Below, one piece after another: positions 16,354-18,436 of a stretch of 64,000 nucleotides of DNA. The DNA lies in NCBI RefSeq assembly GCF_022201045.2, contig NC_068560.1:31885501-31949500 (forward strand), written 5' to 3'. This DNA is from Citrus sinensis (Eukaryota > Streptophyta > Magnoliopsida > Sapindales > Rutaceae). Made by a program: the position numbers and the translations under genes. Below the pieces are notes generated by a model. The model was given only the letters and a program-made list of their open reading frames with translations. It searched no databases and was not told the DNA's origin. The stretch's first letter is position 1, and each line of letters starts with the position of its first letter.

Positions 16354-17040
16354 ATTTCAAAGTTATTCTTTTTTTAGAGATTAATTAATAGTAAAATTGA
16401 TAATAACTTAGTTGAAAGTCAAAACTCGAATGTCCAAATATTTGAAGATCACTCAAGATTATATGATTTGAATATTCATCAATGCAATTTACGTGGGTGA
16501 TCATGCTTGTATTGACCAATTCATACGAGGATTAGAAATTTTAAAGGGTAATTTTTACTTTCCTTCCTTGAGCTTTGGATCTTTTGTATTTAGATGGCTA
16601 AGATTAATTTATTAGTAAAAATCCCCTTACGGAATACAAACGGTAAATCTCATATGGTTAGTTATAGGCAATTTAGTAATTTAATTTGATAAGCATAACT
16701 TTTACACATTTTGATTGACATGTGCCCAGTGAATTGTCAAATCATTGTGAAAAAATCGCGGCTTGTGATCATTCATATAAATAAAAAAGTGTAAAAAAAT
16801 CAAAGCTTAAAACTTTTTCTCTTTTCTTTGAAACTAGGAAACCATTAACTGTAAGTCTAAGTCCAGACGTTTATTTAATGAAGTCTCAGGTCCCTACGTC
16901 ATTTTATCCGACAATGAAATTCAAAGCATAATGTCCTATCACCATGGGAGTGACCCAAAGCCAGCCAGTCAAAACACAACCTTGAGGCCAAATTTTCCTC
17001 AGTTGAAGGAAATTTACAACTTTCAAATGCAGTAGCAAAA

Positions 17041-17051
17041 TACAAATTCTC

Positions 17052-17085
<34 letters not shown>
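17041..17085. repeat. (GA)n microsatellite inside the Pack-MULE
   Basis: About 15 GA units lie directly downstream (minus strand) of the captured TLS1-like exon, at a place where a normal gene would have intron sequence. Confidence 0.9.
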
Positions 17086-17088
<3 letters not shown>

Positions 17089-17100
17089 AACATACTCAAT

Positions 17101-17547
17101 CGGGAGCTGAACCTTAGCCATCCCTGTAGTCCACTGCGTAGAGCTTTCTTCTGAGTTTCTTTTCTTTACCTGATAAAAACAAGAAGTATGAAATTTAAGG
17201 CACAAGAATAATATTCTTGCGTGTAGAACTGAAACAGAATGGTGTAGAACTACCAACACAACCACTCATAAAGAATGCAAAGAACAAGAAAATTAGAATT
17301 TTACGAGGACACCTTTTTCTTTTTTCAATGACTAAATAAAACACACTAGTAGGCATCACTAAAGCGCTTTGAAATAATAGATAGATGTGTGCACAAAAAA
17401 ATCCCAGTCACCTTAAGATGCTCTGGGATCTTGTATAATTCATCTGTAGCGTGCTTTAAATCATTCTCAACTTGATCATTCACATCAATATTCTTTCCCC
17501 TTTTCTTGGCCAGTTCTTGCTCAGCGCACTTCAACCTATCAAATAGT
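17101..17547 (-). pseudogene. Captured TLS1/C9orf78 (HCA59)-like fragment
   Basis: Two minus-strand exons join across an intron with good borders. The first (about 17547-17412) encodes [19 protein letters not shown] and DELYKIPEHLK. The second (about 17171-17098) continues VKKRNSEESSTQWTTG and VQLPIEY. This is the conserved core of the TLS1/C9orf78 family (hepatocellular carcinoma-associated antigen 59), spliceosome-linked nuclear proteins. Both gene ends are missing, so it is a captured fragment, not a gene. The preserved intron shows DNA-level capture. The family call rests on recalled motifs. Confidence 0.7.
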
Positions 17548-17808
17548 ATATTAGAAATTTTTATTTTCTACAATATTAATGCTTCAAGAAATTGTAAACC
17601 TATACAAATTTATGATGGTCGAAGATCTCTCGGTGAGAACAAAGAGGAAGCACTTGTCTCAACTGACAAATTGCAACCTGATGAGGACAGTGGCAAAAGT
17701 CAGATAATATATTTTCGTGATTCGGATGATGAGATGCCAGATTCAGATGAGGACCCGGATGATGAACTGGATATATAATGATATGTAGAAAATAAAAATT
17801 TCTAATAT
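17548..17808. repeat. 24-bp perfect inverted repeat around the ELP5-like piece
   Basis: The 24 bases at 17548-17571 and at 17785-17808 are exact reverse complements (left core ttagaaatttttattttcta). They enclose about 210 bases that hold the ELP5-like frame and nothing else. I cannot find a clear target duplication outside them. Confidence 0.85.
17590..17778 (+). pseudogene. Captured C-terminal fragment, probably Elongator subunit ELP5
   Basis: The + frame reads [19 protein letters not shown] and, after an acidic linker, [20 protein letters not shown] followed by ELDI and a stop at 17778. An acidic [12 protein letters not shown] tail with a preceding IQIYDGRRS is how I remember the C-terminus of plant ELP5 (IKI1 family), part of the Elongator tRNA-modification complex. 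Only the last exon is present. The match is from memory and could be another acidic-tailed nuclear protein. Bordered by the 24-bp inverted repeat. Confidence 0.5.
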
Positions 17809-18436
17809 CTATAACATATATACACATCAAGTCAAGCCTTTGTTTTATAAAATTATTTCACCAGCAGACTACATGTATTTTGGCAAGTTTACATTGTGAA
17901 AGAAAGATATGCCTCAATTCACTCATATATTGTTAAAGCAGATGTATTCAAAAGACACATATTGGTGGTATAATCTATTGTAAAGCCTTGTATTCAATTA
18001 CATGATTATGGTCATCAGTATCTTTTGCTTATTCGTTAGTTATTGCGGAAACGCGTTTGAGTAGTCATCAAAATTATGGTGATCATGTGAGTGAGCTGCG
18101 GAAAAAAAAAAGTCGTGGCAATGAACAAATACAAAGAAATGGGATTTGAAAACAACTCTCACAATGCAGCTGAGACGCTGCAATTTCACTTTGTGAATAG
18201 CCATGCACATCAAACTAACCAATTTGCATCTTCAATTATTTCTTTGGTCGATACTAAAGTCAAACTCATTTAATCATAATATCCAATTGGGGGTATTTCA
18301 GTATTTTTTAATTCAATTAACAGTCAACTACAAAATTAACTGACGGTAGGGAAGTCTTTACTAATAAATGAATCTTGACCATCTAAGTATAAAAAACCCA
18401 AAGCTTAGAGGAGGAAAGTAAAAATTACCCAAATTT

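Follow-up and report, generated by a model that had tools for sequence, protein, structure and literature searches.

A Pack-MULE of Citrus sinensis with captured pieces from three chromosomes, probably built by gap repair and then mobilized

The window analyzed here, a 64,000-nucleotide stretch of the Citrus sinensis genome (C5:31885501-31949500; assembly of 299.7 Mb in 11 contigs), contains a 1,885-bp non-autonomous Mutator-like element (positions 16546-18430) that carries three captured pieces, from C3, C6, and C7. The element is a genuine Pack-MULE. We consider it probable, at roughly 0.8, that it was built by gap repair that copied three unlinked chromosomal places, and that it was then mobilized. 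Specifically, a Mutator-like element would have lost its internal part via a double-strand break, and gap repair would have copied TLS1 (C3), ELP5 (C6), and a receptor-gene region (C7). Templates would have been switched with little or no matching sequence, and short templated filler would have been added. A MuDR-type transposase from relatives such as those at loci L018 and L021 would have recognized the retained ends, and the finished composite would have moved at least three times, with a 10-bp duplication each time. Gap repair as the cause, the number of repair events, and mobilization by relatives of the L018/L021 type are what we infer from the structures described below.

The ends of the element are well defined. 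Terminal inverted repeats (TIRs) of 85 nt lie at 16546-16630 (plus strand, starting GGGTAATTTTTACT) and at 18346-18430 (minus strand, from an inverted-repeat search), and the two arms are 81% complementary. Outside them is a perfect 10-bp target site duplication (TSD), AAATTTTAAA, at 16536-16545 and 18431-18440. An earlier note, made from the sequence alone, had proposed TIRs of about 85 bp and an exact 10-bp TSD here, and its coordinates proved exact. The left MULE end (TIR plus subterminal DNA; 16546-16836, plus) is 91% identical to a transposase-bearing element in L018 and the right end (18278-18430, plus) is 92% identical to it, the first 9 bases of the latter overlapping the match to C7. 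The site occupied by the element in unit B of a duplication within the window is empty in the duplicate unit A, where the sequence GATTAGAAATTTTAAATTTCCGTC, starting at 8127, holds a single copy of the TSD (8133-8142), as the same note had placed it (near 8138). The flanks of the two units differ at 7 of 191 aligned sites on the left and at 92 of 1363 on the right. Because unit A keeps the unoccupied site and the flanks can be aligned, the insertion is probably later than the A/B duplication. Elsewhere in the window, 11905-14046 and 23917-25819 form a recent duplicate (two stretches, at 96.6% and 99.0%) with frames that, judged from their residues, we take to resemble plant UDP-glycosyltransferase. 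A 333-aa frame at 20788-21789 presumably resembles the C-terminal part of a cytochrome P450, judged from its motifs.

The interior of the window element is captured DNA and includes no transposase of its own; relatives with transposase exist. The elements at L018 and L021 are both 5,069 bp long, are 99.6% identical to each other, which suggests recent movement, and have their ends in common with the window element. Each contains one uninterrupted 758-codon MuDR-type frame. The transposase frame of the long members matches the Pfam domains MULE, DBD_Tnp_Mut (the MuDR DNA-binding domain), and SWIM, and a protein of Citrus sinensis matches that of L018 at 100% across 96% of the query. The ends thus belong to a Mutator-like family, and the proposal that this is a Pack-MULE is borne out by those ends, the TSD, captured gene pieces with donors, and same-ended relatives that hold an uninterrupted transposase frame. 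Among the 13 family members for which both ends were set (a tally that leaves out the fetched loci L027 and L034), 11 have perfect 10-bp TSDs, one has a single mismatch, and L022 is unmatched as bounded. The three composite copies have only their ends in common with L018; the other 8 short members of the 13 also share additional internal DNA with it. L018 (5340-6026) and L021 (7341-8027) both encode a 229-codon frame on the minus strand, opposite to the transposase, and in L018 this frame includes a zinc finger of the GRF type (Pfam, 1.6e-06). The family member at L025 (3531-5984) encloses another pair of MULE-like ends, whose similarity to those of the window element is about 74%.

Two further copies of the composite were identified by a search of the same genome, L009 on C6 (1,861 bp) and L010 on C8 (1,522 bp); 40 of 381 candidates were scored, so copy counts are lower bounds. 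Both have perfect 10-bp TSDs, TTTTTCTTAT and TAAGTAAAAT, respectively. The composite is therefore present at three sites, each with a different perfect 10-bp TSD, and it has moved in the past, with at least three insertions. L009 and L010 look like sisters, given the deletions common to both. L010 has in addition an internal deletion of 344 alignment positions (window 17417-17760), which is secondary and took out almost the whole of TLS1 exon 3 along with most of the ELP5 piece.

The first captured piece (16837-17543, minus strand) derives from TLS1/C9orf78, also named COP1 SUPPRESSOR 2, and is 92.6% identical, intron included, to locus L011 on C3 (46.777 Mb). Its BLAST match begins at 16821, overlapping the left MULE end. 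Read off alignments on the minus strand, exon 4 lies at 17096-17169, intron 3 at 17170-17411, and exon 3 at 17412-17535; the acceptor of exon 3 and most of intron 4 are also spanned. The identity of the donor rests on the DNA search and on the spliced protein. When exons 1-5 of L011 are spliced, the product matches Pfam Hep_59 (3.3e-27) as well as PDB chains that bear the names "Splicing factor C9orf78" and "Telomere length and silencing protein 1 homolog" (5e-20). Citrus sinensis has an identical protein on record, under the name COP1 SUPPRESSOR 2. A profile search with PF07052 gave no match in the same genome and none in the 14 control genomes (0/14). All 12 candidate TLS1 matches were scored, and comprise one full locus, three Pack-MULE fragments, four fragments in CACTA-type loci, and four short matches. 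The minus-strand TLS1-like fragment with a retained intron, as first described, thus has a parent with the same intron at a single C3 locus.

The second piece (17546-17786, plus strand) is 96.7% identical to locus L012 (C6:23678535-23678775, at 23.678 Mb). It includes the last exon with its stop codon (17588-17778, plus, read off alignments), the end of the last intron, and the start of the 3'UTR, in agreement with the ELP5 C-terminus that had been thought probable on this strand. The exon of the donor scores 19.8 bits against Iki1, below the Pfam cut-off of 22.5, and domain searches with the captured 57 residues alone and with a 79-residue ORF upstream gave no match. The putative name ELP5 draws on this sub-threshold Iki1 match and on relatives named Elongator complex protein 5. 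Among the 40 of 381 candidates scored, the piece occurs in the composites and the donor only.

Donors were thus found for both fragments that the earlier note had assigned to unrelated nuclear genes, and a third captured piece had been missed, as had a perfect inverted repeat of 25 nt that flanks the ELP5 piece. The third piece (17834-18286, plus) is related to repeats in a region of LRR receptor-like genes on C7 (12.69-13.20 Mb), and outside the composites every match among the 40 of 381 candidates scored is in this interval. Receptor-like frames are present at the C7 loci, with LRR in L032 and LRRNT in L036, and the piece would represent 5' flanking DNA about 2 kb upstream of a receptor N-terminus. 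It differs from the nearest of the four C7 units compared at 33 of 415 sites, and the true donor may lie outside the units sampled.

The junction between the ELP5 and C7 pieces is informative. A 25-nt segment of the ELP5 intron (17548-17572, plus) appears to be the template of an inverted copy at 17784-17808 (minus), which we read as repair filler. The left arm of this inverted repeat is ordinary ELP5 intron in the donor, and the right arm alone is new. In L009, the ELP5 match is followed by 21 nt and then by two matches to ELP5, one direct (16 nt) and one inverted (25 nt), which overlap by 3 nt (TGT). None of 2000 dinucleotide shuffles of the 84-nt L009 filler reached 16 or 25 nt, the maxima being 15 and 17. 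The window copy lacks 47 bases at this seam, including one of the two direct ELP5 copies. For the first 21 nt of the filler a donor was not found: exact matches occur in the two sister copies only, and two more places match with 2 mismatches, compared with five for a reversed-pattern control. The 25 nt directly before the C7 piece also fall outside the explained filler, and both stretches weigh against the gap-repair reading. Filler that is self-templated and switches strands is the expected trace of template-switching break repair.

The way in which host DNA enters DNA transposons is under debate, with template-switching gap repair and fusion of neighboring insertions as the contending explanations, and the seam bears on this debate in that copied ELP5 seems to have been re-used as a template, once in each direction. 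Gap filling has been discussed for Pack-MULEs and for animal Pack-TIRs (PMC8277862). In the alternative proposed by Catoni et al. for Pack-CACTA, related elements insert near one another, their inner ends decay, and the outer ends mobilize the intervening DNA; this route has been put forward for Pack-TYPE elements in several superfamilies (PMC8903248). Fusion might account for one feature of the copies. Between the window copy and L009, 36 of 424 sites differ in the ends and 65 of 1382 in the interior (Fisher p=0.005), so that the ends are nearly twice as diverged as the interior, which counts against simple single descent and could reflect mixed ends. Conversion of the ends with other family members is a possible source of this excess as well, and trees of the MULE ends have support too weak to place the three copies. 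Fusion would, however, require repeated rounds at three chromosomes, and it does not predict self-templated inverted filler. Between the captured pieces, the matches to the L018 element are only 12-16 nt long (E 0.09-0.35), and none of the eight donor loci examined has a MULE end (E up to 0.01). Since the filler is self-templated, the L018 matches between pieces are short, and the donors have no MULE ends, we favor gap filling and consider fusion unlikely.

The perfect 25-nt inverted repeat that bounds the ELP5 piece also invites a reading in which this piece is a separate miniature transposon, a nested 261-bp unit with the repeats as its ends. We rejected this very improbable reading, given that the donor sequence already contains the left arm, so that the right arm is the only new one. 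L009 and L010 moreover have extra DNA before the right arm, which in L009 includes the 16-nt direct repeat of ELP5, and the restriction of the ELP5 piece to the composites and the donor among the candidates scored is a further point against an independent mobile unit.

The composite might also be read as a new gene or a regulatory RNA locus, producing a chimeric transcript or antisense or small RNAs that act on TLS1 and ELP5. In both the window copy and L009, TLS1 exons 3 and 4 remain open and keep their splice sites, and antisense TLS1 runs into ELP5 within a 90-codon frame on the plus strand. Captured sequences are described as sources of siRNA in maize in a review (PMC13317346). The 90-codon frame, however, has no ATG ahead of its ELP5 part, and the TLS1 exons are conserved no better than intron 3: relative to the donor, the window copy has 8 differences in 198 exon sites and 5 in 242 intron sites, and L009 has 7 in 198 and 8 in 243, respectively. 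Protein constraint is thus not seen in these two copies. Some of the differences may be changes in the donor, as both copies encode Q where the donor has R, and Q is also found in the close homologue P0123. The window copy no longer has the ELP5 acceptor, reading CAA in place of CAG, the ELP5 exon of L009 contains a stop codon, and in L010 TLS1 exon 3 is almost entirely missing and exon 4 contains a stop. A functional chimeric gene would be expected to have exons better conserved than introns and to retain its reading frame and splice sites in every copy, and neither was found. Given the lost ELP5 acceptor, the stops in L009 and L010, and exons that show no more conservation than the intron, we consider a useful chimeric protein unlikely, and the composite appears not to be a working gene. 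To judge from the sequence, a role as a new gene or RNA locus is quite improbable.

The differences from the donors also give a rough idea of age. In the TLS1 piece, substitutions relative to the donor number 26 in 685 sites for the window copy, likewise 26 in 685 for L009, and 20 in 564 for L010; in the ELP5 piece they number 8 in 241 for the window copy and 7 in 251 for L009. At a base rate of 4-5e-9 substitutions per year (PMC7145672, where it is doubled for LTRs), the divergence of both pieces would correspond very roughly to a few million years.

The element is of a known type and is an unusually informative further member of it, on account of its seam and of a link to CACTA elements. Like the Pack-MULEs of rice, Arabidopsis, tomato, and maize, it is a non-autonomous MULE with gene fragments, and Pack-MULEs are described as having TIRs and 9-11-bp TSDs (PMC3310237), with about a third of them multicopy and bounded by distinct TSDs (PMC8277862). 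Pack-TYPE members with genic pieces from several loci have already been reported (PMC8903248). What distinguishes the window element from known Pack-MULEs is that it combines pieces of three chromosomes with a readable self-templated seam. Its TIRs (85 bp, 81%) are shorter and less alike than those usual for TIR-MULEs, given as 100-200 bp and about 95% alike (PMC4334395). CitMule, a MULE of the citrus clementine, likewise has transposase and SWIM domains, and its TIRs are degenerate; it is described as being about 6.9 kb long with 9-bp TSDs and a FAR1 domain (PMC4334395). The L018/L021 family, which is 5,069 bp long and has TSDs of 10 bp and a DNA-binding domain of the MuDR type, is set apart from it by that description. 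Animal Pack-TIRs formed by gap filling or template switching similarly have captured filler, microhomology at many breakpoints, and multicopy members that have transposed (PMC8277862). The window element differs from these as a plant MULE with pieces of three chromosomes in one element. Judged by title, the Pack-MULE and Pack-TYPE literature, including that on citrus, yielded no published description of this element, and the Pack-MULE and CACTA literature yielded no published gene common to Pack-MULE and Pack-CACTA.

Such a gene appears to be present here. Part of the same TLS1 piece is carried by four CACTA-type loci, which belong to a different superfamily from the window element: L014 (2467-2822), L015 (2399-2726, minus), L016 (2402-2716), and L017 (2334-2642). 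L015 and L016 have both CACTA ends and 3-bp TSDs (TAG and TGT, respectively). With up to 2 substitutions allowed, L014 and L017 show a right CACTA end alone, and a degenerate left end can be recognized by eye in L014. L016 additionally contains a fragment of a glycosyl hydrolase 17 gene (GH17; Pfam, 8.7e-07). In all four the TLS1 piece falls within that carried by the MULE. In the TLS1 tree the CACTA copies group with L009 and L010 (UFBoot 88); for the two alternative topologies, the AU test gives p=0.053, the SH test p=0.116, and RELL 0.047 and 0.058. An I-to-T change in the exon is found in L009, L010, and L015-L017 and is absent from L014, which makes it a conflicting site; among the 120 homologues listed, this position is I in 115, V in 3, M in 2, and T in none. 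Another site common to L009/L010 and the CACTA copies is a CpG, and CpG sites are prone to recurrent change. Intron sites are unpolarized in this comparison, as it includes no outgroup DNA. We suggest only tentatively that a Pack-MULE of the L009/L010 lineage, and not the gene, was the source of TLS1 exon 4 in the CACTA elements, direct capture from the gene being plausible too. If this is true, gene fragments would circulate by relay between unrelated transposon superfamilies. Since two transposon superfamilies of this genome both contain part of one single-copy gene, such a relay can be tested in other Citrus genomes.
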